Of a stretch of 64,000 nucleotides of DNA, positions 17,981-64,000 are shown in pieces. Under the pieces are notes generated by a model that saw nothing but the letters and a program-made list of their open reading frames with translations, did no database searches and was not told the origin of the DNA. Origin of the DNA: Medicago truncatula (taxonomy: Eukaryota; Streptophyta; Magnoliopsida; Fabales; Fabaceae); the NCBI RefSeq assembly GCF_003473485.1, contig NC_053043.1:38354576-38418575 (forward strand), in the 5' to 3' direction. Every line of letters begins with the position of its first letter. Within the stretch, counting starts at the first letter, position 1. Both the position numbers and the translations under genes were made by a program.

Positions 17981-17983
17981 TCC

Positions 17984-20547: not shown

Positions 20548-21898
<1,351 letters not shown>

Positions 21899-24615: not shown

Positions 24616-24661
<46 letters not shown>

Positions 24662-28285: not shown

Positions 28286-28345
<60 letters not shown>

Positions 28346-28651: not shown

Positions 28652-29607
28652 ATCATTTCTATTGAACAAAGGGGTTTTGCCCGAGACCGTAGCATTTCTG
28701 ATTGTGTTATTCTTGCCTCCGAAGCGATCAATTCTCTTGACAAAAATCAGTATGGTGGGAATATTGCTCTCAAAGTCGACATATCCAAGGCTTTTGATAC
28801 ATTAGGTTGGAATTTTATGGTTATAGTCTTTAGCAATTTCGGCTTTTCAACAACTTCCATTGATTGGATTCTTACCATTCTAAATTCTGCTCGTTTATCT
28901 ATTTTGGTTAATGGTAAGGCGGTTGGTTTTTTCGCTTGCTCTCGTCGGGTTCGCTAGGGAGATCCTCTTTCCCCTCTGTTATTTTGTTTGGCTGAAGAGG
29001 TTCTTAGCAAAGCTCTCTCTGGTTCTGTTGTTAGGGGACGGCTCACTCCTATGTCTTATTGTTGTGGTACTACTTTCCCGACCCATGTGTTGTATGCTGA
29101 CGGTATTATGATATTTTGCATAGGTTTGAAAAGTAACATACGGGAGCTCATTAGTATTTGTGACAAATACTCAGCAATTTCTGGGCAGATTGTGAATAAT
29201 TCAAAAAGCCGATTCTTCACAGGTTCTATGTATGTAACTCGGATAACTATGATTGCAAATATGTTGGGTTTCATTGTTGGAACAGTTCCTTTCTTGTATC
29301 TTGGATATCCTATTTTTCAAGGGAAACTAAAGGTAATTCACTTCAGAATGATTACAGACAAAATTAGAAATAAACTAGCTACTTGGAGGGGTACCATTCT
29401 TTCAATTATGAGCAGCGTGTAGCTGGTGAAATCTATTATTCATGGGATGCTTGTTTATTCATTCCATGTTTATATTTGGCCTAGACGACTACTGCGTTTA
29501 CTCGACTCTTGGATAAAAAAAATATATGGGGCTATGATGTCCTTTCTAACAAAGTTTGCACGGTTTCGTGGAGTGTGATGTGTCGGCCTTGGTCTGAAGG
29601 GGGGCTA

Positions 29608-29768
29608 CACTATTAAAAAAAACAAAAATTAGTGAGGGAAATTTTGTGAGGGAAAACGTGAAATCCCTCTCTAATTCCGTCACTAAATTTTGCGACCATG
29701 GAATTTGTGAGGAATTTCATTTTTTCCGTCACTAATTTCCCTCGCTAATTTTGCTTTTTCTGGTAATG
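29608..29768. mobile_element. 161-bp MITE in LINE B (TSD CTA)
   Basis: Same element and site as 15637-15797, flanked by CTA at 29605-29607 and 29769-29771. Inherited through the block duplication. Confidence 0.8.
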
Positions 29769-31052
29769 CTAGATATAAAACCTACGCGTTTGATTAATGA
29801 AGCATTGATTCTGAAGTTGGCTTGGGATTTATTGGCAACGGACACTCAATGGTCTATTCTTTTCAAAAAGTGATATTTCTCTAATGGTAAACCGATCACA
29901 CACCATTTCAAATCCTCAATTTGGTCGGGTATTAAAATTCAGATTGGCACAGCTATGGAGAACTCTTTGTGGATTGTAGGAACGGGAGAGAAGATTCAAT
30001 TTTGGACGGATAATTAGCTCGGTGAAACTTTGGTAGACTTAATTCATATCGACTCGGATTTTCATGGTCATCTTAAAGGAACGGTTTCTGAAGTTATTGT
30101 GAATGGTGGCTGGAATTTGCCTGCAGTTTTAAAAGACTTTGGGGACATAAAAGATCTCTTGGAAGCAATAGTCTTTCCTATAGGCCATCTCCCTGACGTG
30201 ATGGTGTGGACTCACGCTCCAGATGGTATTCTTACATCGAAACTTGCTTTCTCTTTTCTTCGAACGACCACCACTTTGCTGCCTTGGGCGGAACACATTT
30301 GGAGCCCTTTTATTCCTCCTTCTCATTCTTGTATTTATTGGAGACTCCATCATGGGAAGATGCCTACAGATGAAAACCTTAGGAATCGTGGCTGCATTGT
30401 TGTAACACCCCGTTTTCCCAACATAAAAATTCTTAAAAACATTTATCAGAGTAAGCATCATAAACAACGGGATATCACATAAACCATAATCCAAAACAGT
30501 TAAATAATAATTTAACCAATATCTTAAACATTGCAGCGGAAAATCATAATCATAATTCATAAAACGTTTTGGCACGCAGGCCCCATCAAAAGTTCATAAT
30601 CAGAATCCATAACATTATAAAAATAACATATTAGTCACGTAAGAGAATGAAGCATGCATAAACATAAACCCCATCCCGTTACGTATCAGAGCGACCTAGA
30701 CGACACAGTGAGGCAAGGCCACTCACAGAAGCAACTGCACACTAAGCACGATCACCTGCAAGTTACCCATACGAAGGGCAACATTTTCAAGCAGAAGGGG
30801 TGAGATTTCATAACAAAATAATGCTAATCAAAGTAATTCGAATCATAATTAACATTAACATCATAATCATTCTTGGATAACTTTGCATATTCAAATAACA
30901 AGTATCACGTATTCATATATTCAACAAATATCACGTATTCACTTATTCAATCGTCATCAACAACATAGCATTATGGACATGACAATGTGACAATGCTCTT
31001 AGACTCCTTATATGCATGTGGTACCAATCGTCATCATAAGTATTAATATACT

Positions 31053-31132
31053 TTAATCGTGCGGAGGACAAAGCTCCTAATAATCGTGCGGAGGACAAAG
31101 CTCCTAATAAACGTGGTGAGGACTAAGCTCAA
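31053..31132. repeat. ~28-bp tandem repeat inside the solo LTR
   Basis: A unit with core cgtgcggaggacaaagctcc is present about three times in a row, the last one diverged. Confidence 0.8.
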
Positions 31133-31508
31133 TGAGATGCTATGCATGGACTCTTATGAACAAAACATCGTAATCAACATATCAACATGCATCCAACAAT
31201 TTGGAGCTAAACATCATCATTTCATCATATATAAATACATACAATGCACTTAGTTAAATAACAGCATAATCAAGTCACATAACAGGATGATATCATTATA
31301 TCAATAGCACATCAATTATTTCATAATTAAACTTCCATTTCTTACATAAATATACAATACCTTAATCATACTCAATCAATATCAACATATCTTAAACAGC
31401 TTATAGACTGCATTTAACGTCATCATTAGGTCTTATTATCATAAGGGGGTTCGCTCTTGATCAAAACGTGCGACACAAATCGCACAAACACTCAAAACAC
31501 TCAAGGCT

Positions 31509-31850
31509 GGAGGTGCTCGCGAGGCGAGGGTTCTTGCTCGCCATGGCGAGTACTAAACAATTCCCAAACTAAAGTTGTTCTGGGTCTAAACTTGCCCTAC
31601 ATTCATTCCTAATCATTACTAGGTATGTTCAGGCACACTAAAGCATTCAAGGTCCAACTAAAAAGGTCGAAACACAAAATCTAACATGCACTCTGCCTTA
31701 GCTCGCTATGGCGAGTAAGGTCGCTCGCTATGGCGAGCTGCATTGCACAACTCGCGAGGCGAGGAAACAGGGTTCGCGAGGCGAGCGATGAATGTTCATC
31801 ACTCGCGAGGCGAGATTCATAGCTCGCCGTGGCGAGCGATGAATGTCGCT
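31509..31850. repeat. Cluster of CTCGC-N-GCGAG palindromes in the solo LTR
   Basis: About eight to ten short palindromes of the form CTCGCGAGGCGAG or CTCGCTATGGCGAG, GC-rich in an AT-rich setting, spaced irregularly. They may be regulatory or structural; the role is unknown. Confidence 0.85.
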
Positions 31851-33039
31851 ACGGCCAGACTTCCTAAATTCACAAAAACTCGACGTTTCACATGGTTCTA
31901 AGCTTGTTTTTTATTCCAAAGTTCGTCCTAAACATTATCTAAGGTCTAGGAACACTTTCTACATCCATTAAACCAATTCTCACCGTTTGATCATCAATTC
32001 TAAGGTTTTGACCTAGTTTTCGTTTTCTCCAATTCACTCCTAATTCTTGTTAACTAATCATCAGAATCACATTCAATTAACAATACTGAGTTATTAGTCT
32101 CACCCTTACCTGGTTATGAAGAAATCGCAGCCCTCTCTATGCTCTTCTCCCTTCTAAGCTTTTCTCCCTTTTTCAAAAGTTTTCACGTACAATGAGTTTC
32201 TAAAATATTAGGTCTTCTCCTATTTATATCTCTTCCTAATAACTTATCTTATCTCACTTTCTCCCCCAAAACTATCTAAAATATCAAAACAGCCCTCAAC
32301 TAAATATTTTATATTATTTTCAAATCTTTATTCTATTTAACAATAAAATAAATCTCATATCATAATCAAATCCTCCAAACCTCATAACTTATCACGTCAT
32401 CAATCAAATCACTAAATTCATCGTTAATCACCAAAACATATCAAAATCATGCATATACTATATAATTATAATATAATTGCCTAAACTCAATTAAATAACG
32501 ATTAAACGAAAGTGGGCGTTACAATTGTCGTGTCGGTTTTTGCAGCTTATGTTTGCCTACGGATGAATCTTCCGATCATCTTTTTCTTCAGTGTCAGTTT
32601 GCAACGCATCTGTGGAACTGGATAGGTGGCAAGCTTAATTATGTTATTGATCGCTCTTCTGTAGACACTATTCTATCTTGTAGGCCAGCCAGGTGCTCCT
32701 CTCAGGTATCAGACATTTACATGGCAGCAATATTGCACACGCTTCATACAATTTGGTGGGCTAGGAATTCCTTGAGTTTTACAAATGTAAAGCCAACTTT
32801 GCATTCAGCCAAAGTTTGTATCCACTCTTTTATTTCCATGTCCGGGAATATTTCGAAAGGTAAGTGTCTGCACTCTGACTTCTCTTTTCTTGACTCTTTT
32901 GCGGTTTCTCCTCACTGCCGAAGAGTCAAAGAAATTGTCTTAGTTTTGTGGAAGACTCCGACTGCTCCGTGGTTGAAGGTAAACACGGATGGCTCGGTGA
33001 TTGGTGGCTTTGCAGCTTGTGGAGGGCTGTTCCATGATA

Positions 33040-33167
33040 AGAGAAGTATAAGACTTCTCTTAATATAAGACTTTTTGTAATAAAGAAAAGTATAAGACTT
33101 CTTTTCCACCAAAAGAAAAAAGTATAAGACTTCTTTTCCACCAAAAGAAAAGAGTATAAGACTTCTT
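33040..33167. repeat. ~31-bp imperfect tandem repeat (block B copy)
   Basis: Counterpart of 16941-17068: gtataagacttctt units separated by tccaccaaaagaaaa. Confidence 0.75.
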
Positions 33168-34084
33168 TATCAAATTCATCCATATTATTAAAAAAAATAT
33201 ATATATATGGTTATATTATATTAGTAGATAAAATAATGATTTTTTAAAATTTGTATTAATTTCCCAAAATCACCTATAATCGTTCATATTATTATTAGAC
33301 TACTTTTTCTCGGTTGTTTGGTAAATCTGGACTTTTATTTCGGATCTTTCTGCATCTTCTTTTACTTGGGTTTCTCATATCTTGTGTTTGTTGTTTCCTT
33401 AACGATGCTAGCTGGAAGTTGTGCCGTAGTGGTTTCACTCATATGGTTATGTTGCAAGATGGTAGCTGTTCACATCTCTAGTGTTGCTTGATTGTAGTTT
33501 TAGTGTCCGTCTGTCACAGTGCCGGTGGGCGGTGATTGATCGTTTCTTTAGAATCGTAGGTTTAGATCTTTCGATTGAAGAGTTTGGGGGTGGTTCGTAA
33601 ATCTGTTTCGATCCTTCATGTTTGAATTTGCATAGAGTGGCTGAAATGACATTTATTTGATGTTTTCATAGTGAGTTGTTGGTGTTTGGACTCGTTATTG
33701 TGTTGGTGGTCGAGTTTAAACATCATTATCAAATATCCAACTTCGTAACGTAGTTGATTGCTCTAGATTAGGATTTGTGGCTACTTTATATTATAGGGTT
33801 GTTCTATATCACACTTTTGGGTTCTGGTTATTGTGTTAGGTTTTATTTTTTTAGGGAATTAAGTTAGGTTTTTTGTCCTCCAATATTTGTATTTTTTATT
33901 TTTATTTAAATCTATGTAGGGTGATGTAGCTTCTCCTACCTCATTTTCACTACATTTTAACTATATATCTATATATAGACACCCACAGGTGATTCTATTA
34001 GAGGTCTTTAAGGAATCAAGCAAGTTTTTCTCATTCCAAATATAGCAAACTCCAAACGATTGGACCAAAGCTCTTGCATGCTCC

Positions 34085-34092
34085 TATATAAA
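34085..34092 (+). promoter_or_regulatory. TATA box of Ole e 1-like gene B2
   Basis: TATATAAA in the conserved promoter block, same spacing as gene A2. Confidence 0.65.
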
Positions 34093-34188
34093 GACTTGGT
34101 AGTATCCCATTGTTTTTCATCACAAGGGGAAATAAAAAAGCAGAACAATAAAATACCATCAACAAACAACAATAAATAAATAAATAAA

Positions 34189-35013
34189 ATGGCAAGGTCA
34201 TTTTCTGTCGTTGCTCTCATTGTCTCTGCTTTTTGCTTCTCATCTGTCTTGGCTGCTCGTGTTGCACCAAATGCTGCACCAAATGGTGATGATGTTTTCA
34301 TTGTTGTTGGCCAGATCTATTGTGATCCTTGCGGCTTCCAATTTCAGTCAAGGCTCAGCCAACCCCTAGACGGTAAATAACAACAATATTATCATACAAC
34401 TTATATTTTCTACCCATAATTTATCATCATATATATGTATATAATATTATTTAATATATTATTAATGCTAGAAAAATGTTGAAATGAATATAGAAATTAG
34501 AGATGAAAATGATAAAATTGATCACCAAAATTAGCATCTCTGTCATTTAGCAACGAAATGTGAGATGAGGTTAATTTTTTTTGTCTCTGAATTTTCGTTG
34601 TTATTTCAACTTTTTTCACCTCATATTATGATTTTAGTTGATAAAAAATTCAGATTCTTGATGGTCTAATCTTGATCAAATGACGTGCAGGTGTTAAGGT
34701 GACTTTAAAGTGCACAAAGGGAGACAAAAACGTGACATTCGTGAAGGAGAGTACCACCGACAAAAATGGTGTCTACAACATTGAATGTAAAGGTGATCAC
34801 GAGGAAGAGGTTTGCAAGGTGAAAGCCGAAAATGTGAAGGGCGCATGTACAAAGATTATGGACAACGAATCTGACAGCATTGTCCTCACCAAGAACATGG
34901 GTGTCCCTTCCTTGATTCGTTTTGTTAATCCCCTTGGGTTCATGACTCAGACAATTGATGCCGGATGTGGAAAGGTTGTTACCGAGTTGGGTTTGGACAA
35001 GCTTGATGATTAA
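34189..35013 (+). CDS. Pollen Ole e 1-like secreted protein B2 (two exons)
   Basis: Exons 34189-34372 and 34691-35013, 168 residues. Duplicate of A2; the visible protein difference is SRLSQPLDG for SRLSKPLDG near the end of exon 1. Signal peptide, CDPC motif and later cysteines are intact. The intron is a few bases longer than in A2. Same inferred role as the other three: secreted cell-wall or apoplastic protein of unknown exact function. Confidence 0.92.
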
Positions 35014-35578
35014 ACAATCATTCAACTTATTCATTAATCCTTATCATTAATGAACAATTGACATGTAACTGTTTAAACCATTATTTCTCTGCAAAAATGT
35101 GTTGTTGGTTATTATATGTAACTATAAAAACTCATGTTCATTGAGTATTGAATGAGAATTTGGGAGATATTTGCTAATTTATATCTTCGAACATTATTGT
35201 ATTATTATTTACTAAAGAATTCATCTAATATTCGTAATTGACAATTGTGAGGGTTGACCAAATAACTAACTAATTAATTACTCCTCAAGTCACTTATCAA
35301 AAAATAAATAAGGATCCTCCGGTCATATTTATAAGAGCATCTGATCTGATGACAAGCTTATAAGTTATAAGGAATTCAAACTTGGTTACATAAACTATTA
35401 TGTGACTTATACAATGTACCATTACACTTTTTCAACTCAAGTATATTTTGCTCCAGCATTAATAGAAAGTTAAGAAACTTTTATGAAACTATATTTTCGT
35501 TGATTTTTTATCTGAAACATTTAATTTTATAAATTAATAAACTTTTAATTTGATGATACGGTAACTTATTTAAGTCAC

Positions 35579-36108
35579 TTCAACTATTCCTATGACCTCC
35601 TTCATTCCCTTTTCTACAACTAGATTTCCCATTTCTGACATCAAAGTTGCATCAAAACATTCCGAGACTCGACCTTCTGCTACTCACAGTCTTAGCCAAT
35701 CTGCAAGATCAACACCTCCCTCCTCACTAGTTATCACATCACAAGCACACCTTCCGGTTAAAAGTTCAAAAAGCATCACACCGAAAACAAAGACATCTGA
35801 CTTGAAGGAAGGCATTGTCTTCTTGGAAGCAGTTAACTCCGGAACGTGATAACCTAAGACACAAGCATCAAGAATCTGTTCAATAGTATAGCCTGAGTCA
35901 TAAGTCGATGAAGACAATAATCAACAACACATGCATTCATACCCGCGGTATCTAACAACACATTTGTAGCTTTAAGGTTTCCTTGAGGGACAGCTCGGTC
36001 GAAATGGAGATAGTTCAGGCCACGTGCTACATCGACTACTATTTTGATCCTTTGAGCCCATGTTGACGGTGGACCGTTTTTCCCCGGTCGATCTGAGAAT
36101 TTCAACAT
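35579..36108 (-). pseudogene. LRR receptor-like kinase relic B
   Basis: Duplicate of the relic at 19472-20001 with the same frame change and QGNLKATN catalytic-loop change. Both defects therefore predate the block duplication. Minus strand, kinase lobe only. Confidence 0.85.
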
Positions 36109-36659
36109 ATAGGAAAGTTCAAACTATAAATATTTAAGAATAATAGCAAAAAGATATAAATTGGTGAAACCATATATGTACCCAATCACACACAGAAACA
36201 ATATATTTTAACTTAAAGTAAGAAAATATGGTATGTCTTGCAATATTATATGCACACAACGCAGGCCATAATGCACTATTGCTTGAGTGACAAACTTCTG
36301 ATAAAAAAAATAAAAAAAAACAAGCTCCTGGAAAGTGAAAACCAAAATCTTGTCTAAGGCTCTATTTGGTCTTATATTTTACTTATCTTTAAAAGAAGTT
36401 AGGTCAAATAGCATTTTTTAAAAGATCTTAATTACAAAAAAAGCTTATCTTTTATATATTGGGATCAAGTCCATAAGTCCATAATTAAAGCATATATTAG
36501 AAGATGAATTACCCCTTAAGAAGATTAATCTCATGATCACTAAATACAACAAGGATACCCTAGTGAGTCCATTCCTATATAAAAAGAGTAGCAATATGCT
36601 AACTAACCATTCAGTTACAATTCCAACAAACCCAATAACTTCCTAAACAAGTCTTCTCT

Positions 36660-38010
<1,351 letters not shown>

Positions 38011-38641
38011 GTGAGTTGGTTCATATATTTCATTCTAGTTTAGCAAATTTGTTCTCTTCCTATGTAAGTTTCTCATACACATTTTAGGGTAGTTTTGGCC
38101 ATGTAAAGTTACAGCTTTTACAGAATTTATTGATTTTGATGGCCATAATGTTTGATGAATACATACTAGTAAGCTACAGTCCATCATGGACAGAGTTGCG
38201 CAGATATAAGGAATCAACCTTCACGTCGAACTTTTTTTTTTTTTGAAAACTCGGTATCCGATCCAATTCACGTCGAACTTAATGTCTTATATCCTTATAT
38301 CCGGTGTTATTTGAACCCAACTTTAAAGTTCAAAATAAGTGTATAATTGTTTTTTACATGTTCGAATGCATTTCGGAATTATGAATGTTTACTCTAGAAT
38401 TAATTCTAATTTGAAGCTAAGATTTGTAGTGTTTGCTCCAAACATGATTTTTACACTTATATTTATTGTTCAACTCACTTTTATGTGAATTTATCCAAAT
38501 ATAAGCCATTTTACATTCGACTCAATTTTAACTAAAATCAATTTTTGTCATTGTAGAATCAAATACACACCTAGCTTTAGCTTGGGATGGTGTGAATGGA
38601 AAGAGATGCTCTTAGGATCTTGTTAACTTCTAATGAAAAGA

Positions 38642-39180
38642 GGCCCAACACAACTACATGGCCTAAAGCTGATAATGAAAGATTACCCTTATGCAGAAGA
38701 TGGCCTTCTAATTTGGTCAGCAATAGAAAATTGGGTCTGCACCTATGTGAACAACAATGATAGAGTTAAAGCTTGGTATTCTGAATCATGGTGACCGAAA
38801 TTGAACAACAATGACAATCTTGTCTCGGTCCTAACAATCTTAATTTGGAATGCATCTGCGCAACATGCTGCACTTAGTTTTGGACAATACCCTTGTGGAG
38901 GGTACATGCCAAATCATCCCCTGTTGATGAGAAGATAAATACCAGAAGAAAGTGATCCTAAATATGCAAGTTTTATATATGATCCACAAAAGAGTTTTCT
39001 CAATGCATTGCCTAGAAGATTTATACCAGAAGAAAGTGATGCTGAGATTGTTGAAGCGTTTTATGAATTCTCTGCTGAAATTGGAAAGATTGAGATGGTG
39101 TTTTGCCTTATGAATTATTTGCTCCTAGTTCTGGACCTGGTGTTGCATGCAGTGGCGTTATAAATAGTGTGTCCACATAA
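38642..39180 (+). pseudogene. Lipoxygenase C-terminal relic B
   Basis: Duplicate of 22530-23068, ending NSVST-stop at 39178-39180. Same defects as copy A. No other lipoxygenase exon is in the window. Confidence 0.85.
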
Positions 39181-39628
39181 AAATATGTCTAAAGTAAATA
39201 AATGAGTCACATATCATATCACATTTTGGGAAGCATTATGGTTGGTTTGGTTTATTTATCAGTAATAACATTCAAGGGAATGCCTTCTAAGGTAACATTT
39301 TTGGTGTCGTGTGGAGCGGAGGTTGTTTGGACTAAGGAGCGACTATGTTGTGTTTGGCCTGCTGCTGTGCAGAGTCTGGTTTGCTGATGTGATGAGTTTG
39401 GTTTGATGCGGTTTTGTGTGCTCAACAGCTGTCATGAGTTATAATGATTAATGGGTGCTTTTGAGCCTTGTATGGCAATATGGTCTCTATTTGTAATTGT
39501 ATGCTTTGTTTTGTTTCAATCCTCCGACAGGTACGGCTTGTTCAGGCGAAGAGTATTAGTAAAGTTGTAAGTTGTTTGGTTCTTGTAAAGTCTAGTGAAA
39601 TGGTTTTCTTTAGCAATGAAAAAAAATG

Positions 39629-49128: not shown

Positions 49129-49808
49129 TCTTGTATAAGGAGCATGTAAACGTCCTCTGAATACATTTTAGGGTTAATTAGGTTTAAAGTCCCTATAAAT
49201 AAGCGAGCTTCCAACATTGGTTCCTATTTAAATTTTATTAAATTTTTCATCGCAATGTTTTTTCCGTTGGTAAGTTTGGTCCTGCCGTCAAACTGTGCTG
49301 ACTAGGCTAACAGAATGCTGACTCAGACATGCCACATGGACATTTCAAGTGACAAGTGACATGGCTGTCATATGGTAAATGACATCATATGTTTTTGGTC
49401 CCTATAAAATTGGGATCTTTTAAGTTTAGTCCTTACTTAATTATAATAGTGTTTTTAGTCCATATAAAAAAATTATGCACTCAGTTTTAGTCCCTACTAA
49501 ATCTAAATTTGTTTAATTATGCTTAAACTTTTAAGATTTTGAACAATTTTTTTGCACAAGTGTTAAGAACATTACGAAAAGTTCATCTGCAAATGATTAT
49601 CTCAAAATTTTATTTCTGCGTCCAGATTTTTGTTACTTTTATTTTGAACTTTTGTCTATTAAAAAAATTCATATTTAATTTATTTCATATTAAAAAATTC
49701 TAAATTTTATTAAACGAGCCGTTTGTAATGTTCTAAACTTGTATAAAAAAAAAAAAGCCATTGAAATTTTTTAGAGTTTAAGGTTAGTTACAAATTTTCC
49801 CATAATTT

Positions 49809-50075
49809 TTGTCAAAGCTTGTCACTCTCCTTCATTCTTTTTTATTCTTCCAGATCCATAAAATATTTCACCCTACAAATATTTTCGGTCATTCCCTGAA
49901 TTTGCCAGGGAAAAAAACCAGATATGTGTTAATGTTTCTCTTTGTTACTACTTTGCTCTTTTCAATCTTCTTCGCTCCCACTCTTTATTTCCCAATCCGA
50001 ACCTTGAAAATCGACCGGTTCCGCTTCTCTCTCGAAAAGGTTGTTGCTGGATTTTTCAATGGTGAAGATTGTTGA
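49809..50075 (+). CDS. Doubtful open frame in the centre of the MULE-like element
   Basis: An 88-codon frame with a hydrophobic central part (YVLMFLFVTTLLFSIFFAPT) followed by a basic stretch. It resembles an N-terminal membrane anchor of a captured gene, but I do not recognise a family and it has no further exon. It could be chance. Confidence 0.2.
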   Translation: MSKLVTLLHSFLFFQIHKIFHPTNIFGHSLNLPGKKTRYVLMFLFVTTLLFSIFFAPTLYFPIRTLKIDRFRFSLEKVVAGFFNGEDC

Positions 50076-50150
50076 GTTTTTGTGTGTGGAAGTTGACGTG
50101 TGATTAAGTTGTTGAAATTGATGTCTTAGATGAATTTGCAAGCGAAGGTT

Positions 50151-50242
50151 AGAAGAGCGTCGCCAGCGTGAACGAGGTGGTGAAAAGAGTAGGAGAGAGT
50201 TTGGATTTTTCATCACCTCGTTCACGCCGACGACGCTCTTCT
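50151..50242. repeat. Hairpin with ~32-bp imperfect arms inside the MULE-like element
   Basis: Left arm agaagagcgtcg...gtgaacgaggtggtg and right arm catcacctcgttcacg...cgacgctcttct pair with two or three mismatches around a ~28-base loop. GC-rich compared with its surroundings. Confidence 0.85.
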
Positions 50243-51880
50243 AAAAACTCTTAAATTTTTCAATGATTTTTTTTATATAAGTTTAGAACATTACTAAAGG
50301 TTCATTTACTAAATTTTAGAATTTTTTTAACATGAAATAAATTAAATATGAATTTTTTTAAAAGACAAAAGTTCAAAATAAAAGTAACAAAAATCTGGAC
50401 GCAGGAATAAATTTTTGAGATAATTTTTTGCAGATAAACTTTTCATGATGTTCTTAACACTTGTGCAAAAAATTGTTCAAAATCTTAAAAGTTTAAGCAT
50501 AATTAAACAAATTTAGATTTAGTAGAAACTAAAACTGAGTGCATAATTGTTTTATATGGACTAAAAACACTATTATAATTAAGTAAGAACTAAACTTAAA
50601 AGGTCCCAATTTTATAGGGACAAAAAACATATGATGTCATTTACCACATGCAACCATGTCACTTGAAATATCCATGTGGCATGCCTGAGTCAGCATTTTG
50701 TTAGCCTAGTCACTACAGTTTAACGGCAAGGACCAAACTTACAAACTGAAAAAAAAACGTTGGGGATGAAAAATTTAATAAAATTTAAATAGGGACCAAT
50801 GTTAAATGCTCGCTTATTTATAAGGACCTTAAGCATAATTAACCATTTTTTATACAAGTTTTGAACATTACTAAAAGTTCGTTTACTAAAATTTATAATT
50901 TTTTTAACATGAAATAAATTAAATATGATTTTTTTTAAAAGTGAAAAGTTCAAAATAAAAGTAACAAAAATCTGGACGCAGGAATAAAATTTTGAGATAA
51001 TTTTTTGCAGATAAACTTTTCATGATGTTCTTAACACTTGTGCAAAAAATTGTTCAAAATCATAAAAGTTTAAACATAATTAAACAAATTTAGATTTAGT
51101 ATGGACTAAAACTGAGTGCGTAATTGTTTTATATGGACTAAAATCACTATTATAATTAAGTAAGAACAAAACTTAAAATGTCCCAATTTTATAGAGACAA
51201 AAAACATATGATGTCATTTACCACATGGCAGCCATGCCACTTGAAATGTTCACGTGGCATGTCTGAGTCAGCATTTTGTTAGTCTAGTCAACACAGTTTG
51301 ACGGCAAGAACCAAACTTACAAACGGAAAAAAACGTTGGGATGAAAAATTTAATAAAATTTAAATAGGGATCAATGTTGAATGCTCGTTTATTTACAGGA
51401 CCTTAAATATAATTTAACCCTACATTTTAATAGGTGGCTACAAGGAAAATGTTATATAGGAATTATGGTTCGAACCCTAAACTCCCTCACTTCTCTACAA
51501 TTAAATGTGTGAACATGAGACACTACGTCAAACCCCAAAATTAACAATGAACGTATTTTGAAACTAAAACTTAAAAGAAAAAAAAAAGACTAAAAATGAA
51601 ATTTGGACATAAAAACCATTCACACATTTAACTGTTAATTAAATTCATAAAATAAATCTTCGTAAAAAACCATTTTTTTGTGACCTATTGAAATAGCAAA
51701 AGTTGTATAAATAAAAAACTTATTGAAAAAGAAAAAAAGTTGTATAAATGACACAAAAGAAGCGAGAGAAGGGTATTTTCATTTCCCTTTGTTAAATTCT
51801 AGTGAGAGAAACCTTCTTTTTCTCTCTCTTCTCTCATCAACCCTCAAACCCCTATTGCGTACTTTGCAATCGACCCAATA

Positions 51881-54800
51881 ATGGCTAACAGTAACCTTCC
51901 TCGAAGAATCATCAAGGTTCGTTCGTTTCAATTTTCTTCTTAAGATCCCTATTTCAATTTCTTTGATCGATTCGTTTTATCGATTTCGATTATTGATTAT
52001 CACGTTGATTATTAGCTTGATTGAACATAAAATTGCATGTGAAATTAGGGTTGATTTAGTTTTTTCCAGGGGAACTAGCTTAATTAATTAGTTTAATTTC
52101 AGTGATGATTACAAAATTAGGAAAATTAAAGTGTTAGATGTTGAATCGGTGATTCAACTTTTTTTTCTTTTTCTGATTTGATTTTTGTTGATGTTGAATT
52201 TTAGTTCTGAATTGTTTTTATTGCTTCTGTATTTGAATTTGATTTTTGTGGATGTTTTGATAACTATTGTTTCTTTGATCTCTTCAGGAAACACAGCGTT
52301 TGCTCAGTGAGCCAGGTATTGTTTTATCCTCATCGTTTTGTAGTGTAGAAGGTTTCACTCAGTTAATTGGAGAGTGTTTGTTGTGTGGTTCTTATTTTCT
52401 GTGGTTTTTGTTTTAGTATAGTCTTTTGTAAGATACGTTATGGCGTAATTTGATTCATGTGCGATAAGGCTTGGTTGTCGTTGTTATTTTCTAAGATACC
52501 TTGAATTTTACCCTATGAAGCACAGACACGAAGACACAGACACCGATAACAATTAGAGAAAATGACACCCTTTATTGTAATCATATCATATGTGTCGGTT
52601 TGTGTCTGAACAATAGGTTTCCGACACCGGGACACGCCTAATCCAAGGAGTATTTGTGCTTCTTAGATTTTACCTTGGCGTGTATGATTAATTTTAAATC
52701 AGTGTTGTTAAATAGTGGCGCTATAGAGCTATATCACAGTGGAAATTGAATAAATTTCTATTTTCGTGTTGTATGGTAGTTAGTACAAAATGTTGTCAAA
52801 TAGCAGCTATAGCGCCGCTATTCCATCGTTGCATAGTGGAATTTCCCGCGACCCGCATTGAACAAACAGTTATTTCCCGTGATCTGCAGTTGACAACACT
52901 GCGAAATGTTTTCTTGTTTTGTTTTGCTGTGTTGATTTATAATATTTGATCTGATGATGCAGCGCCTGGAATTAGTGCATCCCCTTCCGAAGACAATATG
53001 CGGTATTTCAATGTGATGATCCTTGGCCCAACTCAGTCTCCTTATGAAGGTAGTGATGACTCTAACAACTTGGTTTTACACCTTGAATTGTGTATGTGTT
53101 TATCTTTTTGCTAGAAATGGGAAATTAATTATTTTCGGGCTTTTGAGTATGTGTATTATTGTTTTCTATAAAAGATTTTTCTCTGATATGCAGACATGTT
53201 TTGGGAATGATTCTGAAAGGAAACTGCTTCTATTTTTTGCCATGATATTTCAAATTCACTGCTTTTTTTTTATCTCAAGTTGAGCATAAACTGTTCGACG
53301 CTACAAACAGTCTATTAGTTATATGAAATGTTATCCTGTTAATAATCTTGCAAGGCAAACGATTTGAGTAATGAGGTGGGCATAAGAATATTTAGATCTC
53401 ATCATTATTGTCGTTAATGATTAAAGAATATCTGCTTGTCTGCTTCTCAAAGATGCCTTGTCTTCTTATCACGTGTTTAACTTTAACCCCTGTATACATC
53501 TTCTTGAACTATTTTCTTAGAAGTCCATTATTTTGGTCCACATTGTTATCCCTTATATTTATCCTTGAGCAGAAAATTATTTCTCCTTGAGCCGAAAATT
53601 ATTTCTTTTACTGTTGACATTATATTTCCAGCTTTCGCTACATATATGGAAAATAGTCAGTAGCTAATTACTACAGGTTGTCATTCTTGTTTATATAGAA
53701 AGTTCTTTATGCTTCATGAAAAACGCTACCACATTTTGTAAAAAAAAAAAAATAGTTTGGCTCTGTTCGATAAAATGTGGTAGCGTTTTTTTTGCAAAAT
53801 ATTTTTTGATGACCAAACTAAATTAAATTTCTTATGAGCAGTGCTTTTCATTTGACCTATAAAGTACAACCCACTAACTCTTCAAATGGGTACCCTTCAA
53901 AATGGTTACTACATCAGAGTCAAGTCACAAACTGTGTTGGATTATAAGATACTATGGATGCTTATACCCTACATCTTTCAATAGTTTTTGAATTTTGCCA
54001 CCAATACAAATTGGATATCTAACAATTTGATATATTATAGTATCTTATTGTGTACAATGACTAATGCTGAGTTGGTTAAGTTGGAGACTTTGATGTCTTT
54101 GTTCCAAATTAGGGTTTGTTGTGCTTTGTTGTTCATATTACACTTCTGGTGCACCAAAAAGACTGGGTCAAACACTAAAATTTGGAATAGAAGAGCTATT
54201 AAGTTACTGGGTCGAATTAAAGGATATTTACATACTTTAATCATCGTTATTGTGGGTCATCTGTTATGCTCTTTTTCGCCTCCTATTTGAAAGTCATAAT
54301 GTATCATAAATTTGTATGAAAGTTGATGCATGAGTTATGGCACTTGGTTGGAGTGGGATAAACAAGACAAGATTATACTCGCATCACCACTTTTCCTTTT
54401 CAAGAAGTTGATGTATTATAAATTTGGACTTTCTGAAGGGTTCACTTCAGAGTTTATAGTGCACCCTGCAGTTCAGATATAATGCATAGTGTGTCTCATT
54501 TTAGCTTGGGTGAGACTTGGAAATACGTTTGTATGGAAAGGAACTATGTGTTACATGTGAACACTACACGTGTGTCTCATGTGTGTATGCTTCTCTGATC
54601 ATATTTTAGGGTTTGGAAAGGAATAGATTAACCGAATAACAACTAGCTTGACTATACTGGAATTTTTGTATTCTCTCCTACCTCTCCTCATAAAAGAAAG
54701 AAATATCAAGTTTACTGATGTGCAAGTGTTTTGTTTTCATTACTAGGGGGAGTTTTCAAGCTAGAACTATTTTTGCCTGAAGAATATCCAATGGCTGCTC

Positions 54801-57251
54801 CAAAGGTACTTAATTTAATTGTTTTCATTTTATTTTCATTTGTTTTGTGATATTATTTTGGTGTTAACTGTTAAGTTTCTACTGTGTTCTTGTCTTCCAA
54901 GAAGAAATGACAACATAATTATAAATTATTTTCACCTGTAAACTTTTTTAAGAGTTTTAGTAAAAGGTTGTTCCTCTTTATTTGTCGTTTTCAAAGTTCA
55001 ATGCAACATCAATTATTGTTTTGTCAATAATACCCTTAACTGTTCATTGCAGAGGGAGAAATAGGTGGAATAAGTCAATAAATGGTTAAGGGTATCATAG
55101 AAAAAGACAAATAATTCCATCAAAAGTAACAATTTACTGGTCCTCTTGGCATGTGTAAATAACCTTAAAATGACGGCTAAAATGAAACAGATATATTTTT
55201 CATGTCTTTGTATCTGATGATCGATGCCAAACTTATAAAGGCCACGGACAAGATATTCTGTAAATTTGAAATTAATTGCACAGATGCACAGTCTTGTGTA
55301 CACATTGAATTAACTGTCTTCACATAGTTTTCAAAATTTTTAGATGATAAATAATTTGAGATACGTTGATGTATTAAAATTGTGTGTTTGAAAATTCAAT
55401 CAGCTAATTTTTTACGTATAAGCTTTCAGCTAAAAAATAGCTTCTCCGGTTAGGAACCCAAGAATTCTAATCTTCAAGATTAGAGAAACATGTAAAACAA
55501 ACTTAAATAGATAAAGATAAAGATTGTACATGGCTGAGGAATTTCTTATTTGTGTAGTGAGATTGAAAGTGAAGATACAACAGGTATGCAATGAAGATTG
55601 TAACCTTACACACCAAAGGATCACTCTCATTTCACACCAAATAATTCTCTAGTCACAATTTAAGTATTAAAGCTATCTTTCCCCTCTACCAATTGATGGC
55701 TATTTAAAGACTTATATGATTAACCAAAATAGCGACTCTTAACAACCACCTAACAAGCTTATCAAATTACTAACTTGTACTAACTAACTCTTTACTACTC
55801 TAATCATCTAATATTCTATATTCTAACACTCCGCCACTTGTTAGATTGTCCAAATAGAATCACAGTATGTGTTTCTTTTAAAATGAAATTGAAATATTTT
55901 CTTGATAAATTGGGATGGAATATAATAATGCTCAATTTCTATATGGTCTGGGATGAAGTTATGTATATTGAGGAGGCCATTACTACTTCCAGGGTTTAGG
56001 AAACGACTGTCACAGCTATTGTGTATCTGATTGGGGTTTACATTTACGAAAAAGGTCTAGTAGGAGGTTCTTTTTATTTTTTTGAAGGATAATTTAATCA
56101 CGCCTCCACTCAGAATTGTGTTTGTTTATTATTTTTCTCTTTCTTTTCTGGCTTTGTTTCTTGTGATGATAAAATACGATATGATAGATTTGAAGTGTGC
56201 ATTTTTCTAAAAAATTCTGTAATAATTCTTATTCCTAATTCAATCATGCCTTGCTTCTTCCAGGTTAGGTTCTTGACAAAAATATATCATCCTAACATTG
56301 ACAAGGTATGCTTTGCTTTGCTTCCCTTGCTTTTCTTTTCTTCTTTGATGATAACCTTTTATAAAAGTTGAACTTCGATTCGATGCAGCTTGGCAGGATA
56401 TGTCTTGATATTCTGAAAGATAAGTGGAGTCCTGCCCTCCAGATTCGCACTGTACTTTTGAGGTATATTTAATTTTCACCTTTTACTTTAGTGGATTAAC
56501 CTTTTGCTGCACCAATTCATTTCCTGAAAAACTGTAGTTAATAGATCATATGTGAAATAATCTTTTATGTATCTTAAATCATTTTTAAAACTGCAGTTAA
56601 CTCAAGTGGATTTGCAAGCCTGCAAATTGAACGTTTTTTTAAATTAATGTTTTATGTATCTTAAATCATTTTGTTAGAAAGAATTTTTCATTTTGGTATA
56701 GTTTTATGGGAAAACAGATTGTTACATTAACTTGTCAAATAGACATTTTTTAAACCATAAATTTTCTGTGTGAATGCATAAAAGAGGGGTGGGAGGGAGC
56801 AAAAAGAAACACTTGATTGATTGTGGTGACTTACTCAATTTGTACGTGAAGGTCCAGCTGGATCTTACTTTTGATTTCTGAGTTACTCTTGCATATACAT
56901 AACATTGTGGGAAGTTGGTTAAAAATGAAAAATTTACCTGCCATGTATTGGATATAATGTTTTATTGATAATAATATAAATTTTGCGGGTCCTATTTTAG
57001 TATTCAAGCTCTTTTGAGTGCACCAAACCCAGATGATCCTCTTTCTGAGAACATTGCTAAGCATTGGAAATCTAACGAGGCTGAGGCTGTTGAGACAGGT
57101 ATGTCTCTTCTGCTAGCATGATTACATCAAAGTTTGTTATTTTTTTATGATAGCATCAGACGTGCTATGTGTATATTTTCTTATGAAAATGACGGTATTT
57201 TTTAAATCTGCAGCCAAAGAGTGGACCAGATTATATGCAAGCGGTGCTTGA
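51881..57251 (+). CDS. UBC13-type ubiquitin-conjugating enzyme E2, copy 1
   Basis: Eight exons: 51881-51916, 52288-52315, 52963-53049, 54747-54805, 56264-56305, 56389-56462, 57001-57098 and 57214-57251; 153 residues; all introns GT-AG. UBC13 (plant UBC35/36) pairs with a Uev/MMZ partner to build Lys63-linked ubiquitin chains used in DNA-damage tolerance, immunity and iron or auxin responses. Catalytic Cys89 lies in [13 protein letters not shown] is at 79-81; the N-terminal helix starts LPRRIIK; the E3-binding SPA motif is at 98-100; the C-terminus is YASGA. Its length equals the plant family. All key residues match the conserved form, so this is the ancestral-type copy. Large introns carry MITEs and an LTR remnant, all shared with copy 2. 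Confidence 0.97.
52517..52662. mobile_element. Possible MITE in UBC13 copy 1, intron 2
   Basis: Short inverted ends gaagcac / gtgcttc with cacagacac-like inner repeats. Present in copy 2 at about 58947-59092. Superfamily not assigned. Confidence 0.4.
52700..52901. mobile_element. hAT-like MITE in UBC13 copy 1, intron 2
   Basis: Ends CAGTGTTGTTAAATAG and TTGACAACACTG are inverted; the interior has cgctatag / ctatagcgccgctatt palindromic motifs. CAGTG tips suit hAT elements; no clear 8-bp duplication is seen. Confidence 0.65.
53718..53793. repeat. Hairpin in UBC13 copy 1, intron 3
   Basis: aaaacgctaccacatttt and aaaatgtggtagcgtttt are inverted arms around ~35 bases. Also in copy 2 (60125-60200) with one substitution in the right arm. 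Confidence 0.85.
55430..55828 (-). mobile_element. Probable Copia-type LTR remnant in UBC13 copy 1, intron 4
   Basis: Fossil. On the minus strand, a tract ending GTGGCGGAG is followed at 55828 by TGTTAGAATATAG, the layout of a Copia polypurine tract and LTR start. The far limit is uncertain. No coding. Shared with copy 2, so it predates the UBC13 duplication. Confidence 0.4.
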
Positions 57252-57946
57252 CAATTTGGTGGATACTTTTGGTCTCAAATAACAATAGTGGAAGTGTATG
57301 CTATTAACTATCAAATTGAAATGGAAAAATTTAGAGGAATTGTCTAAACTATGTGGAGTCCATTTTCCTCTTATAGCTTCCGGTTACATGTTTATTGCTT
57401 TCTATCTTCCGGAAGACTTCTATTGGAACTTGTATGAATATATGGATGTTTTATGTGTCAAATTTAAAACATGGTCTGCTAAATGTAGTTTTGGATTCCC
57501 AACTCAAACGTTTTGAATAAGCTTTTCGTTTGGTTTGTCCACATTATGATGGATTTGGCTTGTCTTGAGTGAAGATTACCATTTAAATGGGTATAGTGTT
57601 GAATCATAATGGAAAAATCTAACAGTTCTATTCAATAATATTCTCAGCCGTGGAATTTTTCAATTATTAGTTAAAACTTGCATTTTATCTTTTATATCAA
57701 TTTTAATAATCCCACTTTCCTCAAAGAAGTCAAATCCATTATACCCCGTGAATCCATGTTTGATGTTTGGTTGTGAAATAAGGAAACTATCTTAATGCAA
57801 CGTTTGTGTCCAATCGGTAAAGGATGGTTGTGTTTTGTGAAGAGATTTGGACAAAAGAGTTCTTTCCTCGTTTGGATCATGTGAAAAAACTTGTTAGAGG
57901 CCTAAGTGTCTATTCCTATGTCAAATCGATAATTGACCTATTTCAG
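57252..57946. other. 3' flank of UBC13 copy 1
   Basis: Contains the 3' untranslated region and a spacer. The first ~125 bp match the end of the window after copy 2. No other gene seen. Confidence 0.5.
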
Positions 57947-58308
57947 ACATTACGTTAAATCCAAAATTAACAATGAACATATTTTGAAACTAAAACTTAA
58001 AAGAAAAACAAAAGGACTAAAAATGAAATTTGGAAATGAAAACCATTCACACATTTAACTGTTAATTAAATTCATAAAATAAATCTTCTTAAAAAACCAA
58101 TTTTTTTGTGACCTTTTGAAAAAGCAAAAGTTGTATAAATAAAAAACTTATTGAAAAGGAAAAAAAGTTGTATAAATGACACAAAAGAAGCGAGAGAAGG
58201 GTATTTTCATTTCCCTTTGTTAAATTCTAGTGAGAGAAACCTTCTTTTTCTCTCTCTTCTCTCATCAACCCTCAAACCCCTATTGCGTACTTTGCAATCG
58301 ACCCAATA

Positions 58309-61300
58309 ATGGCTAACCGTAACCTTCCTCCAAGAATCATCAAGGTTCGTTCGTTTCAATTTTCTTCTTAAGATCCCTATTTCAATTTCTTTGATCGATT
58401 CGTTTTATCGATTTCGATTATTGATTATCACGTTGATTATTAGCTTGATTGAACATAAAATTGCATGTGAAATTAGGGTTGATTTGATTTTTTCCAGGGG
58501 AGCTAACTTAATTAATTAGTTTAATTTCAGTGATGATTACAAAATTAGGAAAATTAAAGTGTTAGATGTTGAATCGGTGATTCAACTTTTTTTTTTCTTT
58601 TTCTGATTTGATTTTTGTTGATGTTGAATTTTAGTTCTGAATTGTTTTTATTGCTTCTGTATTTGAATTTGATTTTTGTGGATGTTTTGATAACTATTGT
58701 TTCTTTGATCTCTCCAGGAAACACAGCGTTTGCTCAGTGAGCCAGGTATTGTTTTATCCTCATCGTTTTGTAGTGTAGAAGGTTTCACTCAGTTAATTGG
58801 AGAGTGTTTGTTGTGTGGTTCTTATTTTCTGTGGTTTTTGTTTTAGTATAGTCTTTTGTAAGATACATTATGGCGTAATTTGATTCATGTGCGATAAGGC
58901 TTGGTTGTTGTTGTTATTTTCTAAGATACCTTGAATTTTACCCTATGAAGCACAGACACGAAGACACAGACACCGATAACAATTAGAGAAAATGACACCC
59001 TTTATTGTAATCATATCAAATGTGTCGGTTTGTGTCTGAATGATAGGTTTCCGACACCGGGACACGCCTAATCCAAGGAGTATTTGTGCTTCTTAGATTT
59101 TACCTTGGCGTGTATGATTAATTTTAAATCAGTGTTGTTAAATAGTGGCGCTATAGAGCTATATCACAGTGGAAATTGAATAAATTTCTATTTTCGTGTT
59201 GTATGGTAGTTAGTACAAAATGTTGTCAAATAGCAGCTATAGCGCCGCTATTCCGTCGTTGCATAGTGGAATTTCCCGCGACCCGCATTGAACAAACCGT
59301 TATTTCCCGTGATCTGCAGTTGACAACTCTGCGAAATGTTTTCTTGTTTTGTTTTGCTGTGTTGATTTATAATATTTGATCTGATGATGCAGCGCCTGGA
59401 ATTAGTGCATCCCCTTCGGAAGACAATATGCGGTATTTCAATGTGATGATCCTTGGCCCAACTCAGTCTCCTTATGAAGGTAGTGATGACCCTAACAACT
59501 TGGTTTTACACCTTGAAATGTGTATGTGTTTATCTTTTTGCTAGAAATGGGAAATTAATTATTTTCGGGCTTTTGAGTATGTGTATTATTGTTTTCTATA
59601 AAAGATTTTTCTCTGATATGCAGACATGTTTTGGGAATGATTCTGAAAGGAAACTGCTTCTATTTTTTGCCATGATATTTCAAATTCACTGCTTTTTTTT
59701 ATCTCAAGTTGAGCATAAACTGTTCGACGCTACAAACAGTCTATTAGTTATATGAAATGTTATCCTGTTAATAATCTTGCAAGGCAAACGATTTGAGTAA
59801 TGAGGTGGGCATAAGAATATTTAGATCTCATCATTATTGTCGTTAATGATTAAAGAATATCTGCTTGTCTGCTTCTCACAGATGCCTTGTCTTCTTATCA
59901 TGTGTTTAACTTTAACCCCTGTATACATCTTCTTGAACTATTTTCTTAGAAGTCCATTATTTTGGTCCACATTGTTATCCCTTATATTTATCCTTGAGCC
60001 AAAAATTATTTCTTTTACTGTTGGCATTATATTTCCAGCTTTCGCTACATATATGGAAAATAGTCAGTAGCTAATTACTACAGGTTGTCATTCTTGTTTA
60101 TATAGAAAGTTCTTTATGCTTCATGAAAAACGCTACCACATTTTGTAAAAAAAAAAAAATAGTTTGGCTCTGTTCGATAAAATGTGGTAGTGTTTTTTCT
60201 GCAAAATATTTTTTGATGACCAAACTAAATTAAATTTCTTATGAGCAGTGCTTTTCATTTGACCTATAAAGTACAACCCACTAACTCTTCAAATGGTTAC
60301 TACATCAGAGTCAAGTCACAAACTGTGTTGGATTATAAGATACTACGGATGCTTATACCCTACATCTTTCAATAGTTTTTGAATTTTTCCACCAATACAA
60401 ATTGGATATCTAACATTTTGATATATTATAGTATCTTATTGTGTACAATGACTAATGCTGAGTTGGTTAAGTTGGAGACTTTGATGTCTTTGTTCCAAAT
60501 TAGGGTTTGTCGTGCTTTGTTGTTCATATTACACTTCTGGTACACCAAAAAGACTGGATCAAACACTAAAATTTGGAATAGAAGAGCTATTAAGTTACTG
60601 GGTCGAATTAAAGGATATTTACATACTCTAATCATCGTTATTGTGGGTCATCTGTTATACTCTTTTTCGCCTCCTATTTGAAAGTCATAATGTATCATAA
60701 ATTTGTATGAAAGTTGATGCATGAGTTATGGCACTTGGTTGGAGTGGGATAAACAAGACAAGATTATACTCGCATCACCACTTTTCCTTTTCAAGAAGTT
60801 GATGTATTATAAATTTGGACTTTCTGAAGGGTTCACTTCAGAGTTTATAGTGCACCCTGCAGTTCAGATATAATGCATAGTGTGTCTCATTTTAGCTTGG
60901 GTGAGACTTGGAAATACGTTTGTATGGAAAGGAACTATGTGTTACATGTGAACACTACACGTGTGTCTCATGTGTGTATGCTTCTCTGATCATATTTTAG
61001 GGTTTGGAAAGGAATAGATTAACCGAATAACAACTAGCTTGACTATACTGGAATTTTTGTATTCTCTCCTACCTCTTCTTATAAAAAAAAAAAAAGAAAT
61101 ATCAAGTTTACTGATGTGCAGGTGTTTTGTTTTCATTACTAGGGGGAGTTTTCAAGCTAGAACTATTTTTGCCTGAAGAATATCCAATGGCTGCTCCAAA
61201 GGTACTTAATTTAATTGTTTTCATTTTATTTTCATTTGTTTTGTGATATTGTTTTGGTGTTAACTGTTAAGTTTCTACTGTGTTCTTGTCTTCCAAGAAG

Positions 61301-63873
61301 AAATGACAACATAATTATAAATTATTTTCACCTGTAAACTTTTTTAAGAGTTTTAGTAAAAGGTTGTTCCTCTTTATTTGTCGTTTTCAAAGTTCAATGC
61401 AACATCAATTATTGTTTTGTCAACAATACCCTTAACTGTTCATTGCAGAGGGAGAAATAAGTGGAATAAGTCAATAAATGGTTAAGGGTATCATAGAAAA
61501 AGACAAATAATTCCATCAAAAGTAACAATTTACTGGTCCTCTTGGCATGTGTAAATAACCTTAAAATGACGGCTAAAATGAAACATATATTTTTCATGTC
61601 TTTGTATCTGATGATCGATGCCAAACTTATAAAGGCCACGGACAAGATATTCTGTAAATTTGAAATTAATTGCACTGATGCACAGTCTTGTGTACACATT
61701 GAATTAACTGTCTTAACATAGTTTTCAAAATTTTTAGATGATAAATAATTTGAGATACGTTGATGTATTAAAATTGTGTTTGAAAATTCAATCAGCTAAT
61801 TTTTTACGTATAAGCTTTCAGCTAAAAAATAGCTTCTCCGGTTAGGAACCCAAGAATTCTAATCTTCAAGATTAGAGAAACATGTAAAACAAACTTAAAT
61901 AGACAAAGATAAAGATTGTACATGGCTGAGGAATTTCTTATTTGTGTAGTGAGATTGAAAGTGAAGATACAGCAGGTATGCAATGAAGATTATAACCTTA
62001 CACACCAAAGGAACACTCTCATTTCACACCAAATAATTCTCTAGTCACAATTTAAGTATTAAAGCTATCTTTCCCCTCTATCAATTGATGGCTATTTAAA
62101 GAGTTCTATGATTAACCAAAATAGCAACTCTTAACAACCACCTAACAAGCTTATCAAATTACTAACTTGTACTAACTAACTCTTTGCTACTCTAATCATC
62201 TAATACTCTATATTCTAACACTCCGCCACTTGTTAGATTGTCCAAATAGAATTACAGTATGTGTTTCTTTTAAAATGAAATTGAAATATTTTCTTGATAA
62301 ATTGGGATGGAATATAATAATGCTCAATTTCTATATGGTCTGGGATAATGTTATGTATATTGAGGCCATTACTACTTCCAGGGTTTAGGAAATGACTGTC
62401 ACAGCTATCGTGTATCTGATAGGGGTTTACATTTACGAAAAAGGTCTAGTAGGAGGTTCTTTTTATTTTTTTGAAGGATAATTTAATCACGCCTCCACTC
62501 AGAATTGTGTTTGTTTATTATTTTTCTCTTTCTTTTCTGGCTTTGTTTCTTGTGATGATAAAATACGATATGATAGATTTGATGTGTGCATTTTTTCTAA
62601 AAAATTCTGTAATAATTCTTATTCCTAATTCAATCATGCCTTGCTTCTTCCAGGTTAGGTTCTTGACAAAAATATATCATCCTAACATTGACAAGGTATG
62701 CTTTGCTTTGCTTCCCTCGCTTTTCTTTTCTTCTTTGATGATAACCTTTCATAAAAGTTGAACTTCGATTCGATGCAGCTTGGCAGGATATGTCTTGATA
62801 TTCTGAAAGATAAGTGGACTCCTGCCCTCCAGATTCGCACTGTACTTTTGAGGTATTTTTAATTTTCACCTTTTACTTTAGTGGATTAACCTTTTGCTGC
62901 ACCAATTCATTTCCTGAAAAACTGTAGTTAATAGATCATATGTGAAATAATCTTTTATGTATCTTAAATCATTTTTAAAACTGCAGTTAACTCAAGTGGA
63001 TTTGCAAGCCTGCAAATTGAACATTTTTTTAAATTAATGTTTTATGTATCTTAAATCATTTTGTTAGAAAGAATTTTTCATTTTGGTATAGTTTTATGGG
63101 AAAACAGATTGTTAAATTAACTTGTCAAATAGACATTTTTTAAACCATAAATTTTCTGTGTGAATGCATAAAAGAGGGGTGGGAGGGAGCAAAAAGAAAC
63201 ACTTGATTGATTGTGGTGACTTACTCAATTTGTACGTGAAGGTCCAGCTGGATCTTACTTTTGATTTCTGAGTTACTCTTGCATATACATAACATTGTGG
63301 AAAGTTGGTTAAAAATGAAAAATTTACCTGCCATGTATTGGATATAATGATTTATTGATAATAATATAAATTTGGCTAAAATATGGTTTTGGTCCCTGCA
63401 AATATGCCTCGTTTTGGTTTTAGTCCCTGTAAAAAAAAATTGTTGTTTTTGGTCCCTGCAAATATGCCTCATTTTGGTTTTGGTCCCTGGCTCCACTTTT
63501 GTGATGATTTGCACACGTGACACATGATGACTGAACCAAAACGAGGCATATTTGCAGGGACCTAAACCATATTTTAGCTTATAAATTTTGCGGGCCTATA
63601 AATTTTGCGGGTCCTATTTTAGTATTCAAGCTCTTTTGAGTGCACCAAACCCAGATGATCCTCTTTCTGAGAACATTGCTAAGCATTGGAAATCTAATGA
63701 GGCTGAGGCTGTTGAGACAGGTATGTCTCTTCTGCTAGCATGATTACATCAAAGTTTGTTATTTTTTTATGATAGCATCAGACGTGCTATGTGTATATTT
63801 TCTTATGAAAATGACGGTATTTTTTAAATCTGCAGCCAAAGATTGGACCAGATTATATGCCAGCGGTGCTTGA
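58309..63873 (+). CDS. UBC13-type ubiquitin-conjugating enzyme E2, copy 2 (diverged)
   Basis: Eight exons: 58309-58344, 58718-58745, 59393-59479, 61143-61201, 62654-62695, 62779-62852, 63623-63720 and 63836-63873; 153 residues; every splice site is intact. Cys89, HPN and the C-terminal YASGA are kept, so it should still charge with ubiquitin. Four substitutions against copy 1: S4R, R8P, S98T and E144D. In human UBC13 the residues equal to R8 and S98 (Arg6 and Ser96) lie on the surface that binds RING and U-box E3 ligases. Proline at position 8 would also disturb the start of helix 1. Either E3 choice has changed or constraint is relaxed. The seventh exon's upstream intron holds a new MITE close to the acceptor. 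Confidence 0.95.
58947..59092. mobile_element. Possible MITE in UBC13 copy 2, intron 2
   Basis: Counterpart of 52517-52662, same short inverted ends. Confidence 0.4.
59130..59331. mobile_element. hAT-like MITE in UBC13 copy 2, intron 2
   Basis: Counterpart of 52700-52901; the right tip reads ttgacaactctg, one base different from copy 1. Confidence 0.65.
60125..60200. repeat. Hairpin in UBC13 copy 2, intron 3
   Basis: Counterpart of 53718-53793, arms cgctaccacattttg and aaaatgtggtagtg. Confidence 0.8.
61835..62220 (-). mobile_element. Probable Copia-type LTR remnant in UBC13 copy 2, intron 4
   Basis: Fossil; duplicate of 55430-55828, inherited with the gene duplication. Confidence 0.4.
63374..63579. 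mobile_element. MULE-like MITE (206 bp) in UBC13 copy 2, intron 6
   Basis: Ends GGCTAAAATATGG and CCATATTTTAGCT are inverted repeats (first base differs), flanked by TATAAATTT at 63365-63373 and 63580-63588. The interior repeats ggtccctgcaaatatgcctc. Absent from copy 1, so it inserted after the gene duplication. It ends about 40 bp before the exon 7 acceptor, and a ~15-bp piece (ataaattttgcggg) is duplicated beside it. Confidence 0.88.
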
Positions 63874-64000
63874 CAATTTGGTGGATACTTTTGGTCTCAA
63901 ATAACAATAGTGGAAGTGTATGCTATTAACTATCAAATTGAAATGGAAAAATTTAGAGGAATTGTCTAAACTATGTGGAGTCCATTTTCCTCTTATAGCT

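Follow-up and report, generated by a model that had tools for sequence, protein, structure and literature searches.

The window analysed here, a stretch of 64,000 nucleotides of Medicago truncatula DNA (contig NC_053043.1), contains two genes for the ubiquitin-conjugating enzyme (E2) UBC13, arranged head to tail, and the second of them, copy 2, is a real, complete and young duplicate of the first. With a probability that we put at roughly 0.66, copy 2 is drifting with little constraint, and its product, if made, would pair with Uev partners and be less responsive to RING/U-box ubiquitin ligases (E3s). As we picture it, a microhomology-type duplication of about 6.43 kb copied the whole UBC13 gene along with the 363 bp that precede it; copy 1 still encodes the canonical protein and presumably fills the UBC13 role, and copy 2 would have evolved since under little or no purifying selection, its frame being still open because the copy is young. 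If copy 2 is transcribed, E1 should still charge its product, which should pair with Uev and assemble Lys63-linked (K63) ubiquitin chains at a basal rate, since neither the active site nor the remainder of helix 1 has changed; the response of this product to RING/U-box E3s should be weaker, because the replacement R8P takes away human Arg6, the first ionic anchor; both the expression of copy 2 and the biochemical effect of its changes are given here as we infer them.

Structure of the tandem pair

The two duplication units and their genes are as follows:

51518..57944, forward strand: duplication unit of copy 1 (363 bp 5' of the ATG, the gene and 693 bp 3'; blastn self comparison)
51881..57251, forward strand: UBC13 copy 1, the canonical gene (coding sequence and Pfam)
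51881-51916, 52288-52315, 52963-53049, 54747-54805, 56264-56305, 56389-56462, 57001-57098, 57214-57251, forward strand: exons of copy 1
57945..64000, forward strand: duplication unit of copy 2, which runs about 580 bp past the end of the window
58309..63873, forward strand: UBC13 copy 2, from the ATG at 58309 to a TGA ending at 63873 (coding sequence and Pfam)
58309-58344, 58718-58745, 59393-59479, 61143-61201, 62654-62695, 62779-62852, 63623-63720, 63836-63873, forward strand: exons of copy 2

Each copy has eight exons and a coding sequence of 462 nt for 153 amino acids. All seven introns of either copy run from GT to AG, the last acceptor being CAG, and copy 2 has neither a stop or frameshift nor a lost splice site or exon that would mark it as a pseudogene, and its 462 nt frame is open; the active-site Cys and the HPN motif are intact in its translation. 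The initial annotation, which had read copy 2 as a complete E2 with intact splice sites and catalytic Cys, is borne out by the sequence. The human genome also has an extra UBC13-like copy, UBE2NL, with key residues changed, which lacks the active-site Cys, whereas copy 2 keeps it.

Membership of the family was judged by Pfam and phmmer. The UQ_con domain scores 170.7 bits in copy 2 and 172.2 bits in copy 1, with a cut-off of 27. Among the best 60 of 316 phmmer matches to copy 1, the top chain is E2 N (7.2e-82), chains named UBC13 or similar to it extend down to 2e-67, and other E2s start at 3.2e-45; the placing of copy 2 rests on this copy 1 query, the copies differing at 4 of 153 residues. 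Human UBC13 (UBE2N) aligns with copy 1 over residues 3-151, including the active site and helix 1, and these alignments agree with the earlier equation of R8 with human Arg6 and of S98 with human Ser96 (plant numbering = human + 2). Both residues of copy 1 are common to human UBC13, whereas at S4 and E144 human UBC13 differs or some chains are unaligned. Copy 2 has Pro and Thr where human UBC13 has Arg6 and Ser96, but since these are contact residues and not family-defining ones, its membership of UBC13 (UBE2N) stands. Comparison of the coding sequences returned exactly the four replacements that had been claimed (papers are cited here and below from excerpts of their text):

58318, forward strand: S4R, AGT to CGT (comparison of the copy 1 and copy 2 coding sequences)
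58331, forward strand: R8P, CGA to CCA, at the human Arg6 position (coding sequence comparison; contact role from PMC6874479 and PMC6776665)
62819, forward strand: S98T, AGT to ACT, at the human Ser96 position (coding sequence comparison; contact role from PMC6874479, PMC5325457 and PMC9954413)
63843, forward strand: E144D, GAG to GAT, near the C-terminus, where the human residue is Ala (coding sequence comparison and phmmer)

Divergence and constraint on copy 2

Outside the exons the copies differ at 84 of 5922 positions (1.42%), namely 62/4863 in introns, 11/362 in the 5' flank and 11/697 in the 3' flank. A first intron alignment with 71 mismatches was rejected, as the nine extra ones came from misalignment at the intron 6 insert (14 versus 5). 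At plant substitution rates of 6.5e-9 or 1.08e-8 per site and year, the duplication would be about 1.1 or 0.7 million years old, respectively. Stretches without any substitution also occur, in intron 7 (0/115) and in the 3' flank as far as 57487 (region 57099-57487), and exon 8 between them has two in 38 bp.

The coding divergence, 7/462, is about that of the introns (Fisher P = 0.66), and counting the changes, a check that the initial annotation had proposed, gave four nonsynonymous and three synonymous ones, the latter in codons 30, 134 and 150. A UBC13 under its normal constraint would hardly accumulate four replacements at this divergence, and here the initial annotation, which had stressed the conservation of the protein, was right; the probabilities that we obtained under constraint are 1.4e-4 at omega 0.05, 0.0018 at 0.1, 0.020 at 0.2 and 0.068 at 0.3. 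If constraint acts on copy 1 alone and copy 2 drifts freely, the expectation is 2.5 replacements, against four observed (P = 0.25), and four or fewer replacements among seven random mutations occurred in 36% of stop-free trials when the transition share was 50/71 and in 16% with the exon share. The 36% trial takes its transition share from the first intron count of 71 mismatches; the 16% trial, the ratio of nonsynonymous to synonymous rates (dN/dS) and the interface chance given below are independent of that count. The constraint on copy 2 has thus probably been lifted or strongly weakened, and, judged by the human residues and not by an outgroup gene, copy 2 and not copy 1 would be the one that lost it. 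Its replacement rate is not shown to exceed the neutral one. By a rough sum, an unconstrained copy this young has a chance of about 0.49 of staying intact (an earlier rough figure was 0.36), and its intactness is therefore no evidence of function.

The initial annotation had named a dN/dS near 1, together with the absence of unique transcripts, beforehand as refuting its proposal; such a ratio is found when the nonsynonymous rate is set against the pooled neutral rate (0.78, 95% confidence interval 0.21–2.06), but not when it is set against the three synonymous changes (0.38). The lower value would suit a redundant dosage copy, expressed and weakly constrained, in which the four changes are tolerated, and the splice sites are indeed retained, as are the 363 bp 5' of the ATG with their TATA-like motifs. 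Nevertheless, we think this rather unlikely, given the ratio against neutral sites, an R8P replacement that the known contacts of R6 would not lead one to expect to be neutral, and a common upstream part that has diverged more than the introns (11/362).

Transversions make up 6/7 of the coding changes against 18/62 of the intron changes (P = 0.006), and exchanges between G and C make up 3/7 against 1/62 (P = 0.006 per G or C site). Against 213 differences (83 transversions and 10 G-C exchanges), for which the introns and flanks were pooled with three further duplicate pairs in the window, one overlapping another, the respective values are P = 0.018 and P = 0.005, all these tests being post hoc. 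The excess of both classes in the exons is unexplained. With either reference, so odd a spectrum speaks for an assembly artefact, with a haplotype misplaced as a second copy or with base errors behind the coding differences, but we consider this very improbable: the window and the next 10 kb contain no N, base errors would not prefer exons, the sequenced line is one that we take to be inbred, and the noncoding differences, an insert with its target duplication and a microhomology junction point to a real duplication.

Several observations weigh against drift under little constraint. The coding changes number only seven, none of them is disabling, their share of transversions is not what simple drift predicts, both replacements at human-shared sites lie on one binding face, and the dN/dS on synonymous sites alone makes partial constraint on copy 2 possible. 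In tomato E2s, Ka/Ks was below 1 for all duplicated genes and mostly below 0.1, with no significant tandem duplication (PMC5561181), which speaks for the usual constraint on E2 duplicates and against decay as a general rule.

The E3-binding face

It had been proposed that the Arg6 and Ser96 positions contact RING/U-box E3s, and the literature supports this (PMC6874479, PMC6776665, PMC5325457, PMC9954413). With TRAF6, UBC13 makes the contacts R6-D57 and S96-P106, while R14 is the hotspot (PMC6874479). R6, at the N-terminal end of helix 1, meets the first ionic anchor in each E3 with identified anchors, RNF4, without these interactions, being the stated exception (PMC6776665). RNF8 is lost with S96D (PMC5325457), and in a titration with Arkadia the Ser96 signal alone vanishes (PMC9954413). 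The binding of OspI, which involves helix 1 as well as loops L1 and L2, is abolished by R6A (PMC3636029).

To judge from the residues, S98T should be mild, far milder than S96D, because threonine keeps the hydroxyl and is present in yeast Rad6, in the place of S98 and at equal distance from the active-site Cys. By analogy with human UBC13, R8P is the change that is likely to matter, as it removes the counterpart of Arg6, the ionic anchor for RING partners. Proline is usually tolerated at the N-terminal end of a helix. As R8P lies at that end of helix 1, the protein should still fold, with the loss of the charge as the main effect.

One could suppose that copy 2 is neofunctionalised, with the loss of the Arg6 anchor and the Thr of the SPA loop both selected, giving a UBC13 that still binds Uev and ubiquitin while it avoids its E3 partners or changes them, and that would act as an E3-selective E2 or a competitor of copy 1. 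The intact frame, the two replacements at human-shared positions on the E3 face, the meeting of R6 with the first anchor (RNF4 excepted; PMC6776665) and the effect of R6A on OspI (PMC3636029) would all fit. We hold this to be unlikely, however, because the replacement rate is not above neutral, S98T is conservative with Thr in Rad6, and the hotspot human R14 is unchanged in copy 2 (PMC6874479 for the hotspot). Moreover, the chance that at least two of four changes fall on a face of 10–20 of the 153 residues is 2.3–8.6%, for a face picked post hoc and of assumed size, so the clustering beyond chance that the initial annotation had seen there is not upheld at 2–9%. A quite improbable variant is that copy 2 is a selected, E3-uncoupled UBC13, which would keep charging and Uev pairing, lack the Arg6 anchor that RING/U-box ligases use and so either make K63 chains independently of E3s or act as a brake on copy 1 by occupying Uev. 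Altered E3 choice, a dominant competitor and decay had been offered side by side as outcomes; the first is possible but is not supported by the changes, and decay needs the fewest assumptions, because relaxed constraint alone gives the observed replacement rate.

Origin and relatives of the pair

With downstream DNA added to the blastn self comparison, 51518-57948 matches 57945-64580 in two pieces, the insert aside, so the second unit ends at about 64580, outside the window. The 4 bp AGAC recurs at the junction and at both outer edges of the pair, and for this reason the pair probably arose by a single head-to-tail duplication of about 6.43 kb of the microhomology type. Of the DNA originally upstream, copy 2 retains no more than 363 bp, within which the TATA-like motifs lie; farther 5' it is preceded by the flank that follows copy 1. 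A third UBC13 copy was found neither in the window nor in the next 9.8 kb. Two features in copy 2 differ from copy 1:

63365..63588, forward strand: in intron 6 of copy 2, a 206 bp non-autonomous transposon-like element at 63374-63579 with inverted ends matching at 42/44 and a 9 bp target duplication, TATAAATTT, which is included in the range; missing from copy 1
63580..63613, forward strand: 17 bp duplicated in tandem just before the acceptor of exon 7 in copy 2, single in copy 1, the first unit of which overlaps the right target duplication of the 206 bp element

The window holds other repeats as well. Three related pieces of about 578 bp (49169-51422; one inverted, two in direct tandem, 89–92% identical) end about 100 bp before the edge of the UBC13 duplication. 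A larger recent tandem duplication of about 13.5 kb with pieces of class III peroxidase joins 10065-23515 and 24022-39628, whose differences come to 42/6351 over one half and to 20/7091 over the other. Its second copy contains about 2.1 kb of additional DNA (30400-32524), and the 5 bp by which the matching ends overlap at 16425-16429 are what one would expect after an insertion.

When the own genome (430 Mb, 42 contigs) was searched with the protein of copy 1, the 52 exon-level matches included no further intact UBC13, where the search scores best candidates only, seven other places were inspected and identity and score decided on the rest. Matches with more than 70% identity are confined to the two C2 UBC13 genes. 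L012, L013, L014, L017, L020 and L021 were rejected as UBC13, as they match piecewise at 36–68% identity and seem by eye to belong to other E2 classes. L022 (G000:C1:50520000-50523000, about 1130-1314, minus strand) is an intronless, frameshifted UBC13 remnant with a changed active-site Cys codon, by its sequence probably a processed pseudogene; it matches coding positions 168-286 and 337-388 and covers 0/7 of the variable sites. As an outgroup for polarising the seven changes, viral contigs gave nothing, contigs of other genomes one weak 32% locus, and the own genome no further intact UBC13. The 32% locus, L001 (NZ_JANYEK010000260.1, 2428-2802), is filed as a Sphingomonas metagenome-assembled genome and has stops inside the match; it is possibly eukaryotic contamination with introns.

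In Arabidopsis, Arg and Ser presumably persist at these sites in both UBC13 genes, which would not be a young tandem pair; unlike them, one member of the pair described here has lost both residues. Arabidopsis UBC13A and UBC13B (UBC35 and UBC36) are described as close sequelogs; Uev partners and E3s, RGLG2 among them, take part in their making of K63 chains, and with these genes that plant, like this genome, has two UBC13 genes (PMC3877749). UBC13 is described as highly conserved among eukaryotes (PMC3877749). Tandem E2 duplicates are known from rice (OsUBC22/23 and OsUBC35/41), where one copy of the OsUBC35/39/41 group has negligible expression, termed nonfunctionalisation (PMC4406754); the excerpts of that paper do not place these duplicates in the UBC13 subfamily and report no change on an E3 face. 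Among the matches listed, no title in the literature concerns a tandem copy of UBC13 in a legume, Medicago included.

The tandem pair is the sole intact source of UBC13 that the search of this genome found. A natural UBC13 variant without the first ionic anchor would test how far plant RING/U-box ligases rely on that contact. Most likely, the pair illustrates how the spare copy of a highly constrained gene quickly loses residues of its binding face once the constraint is lifted.

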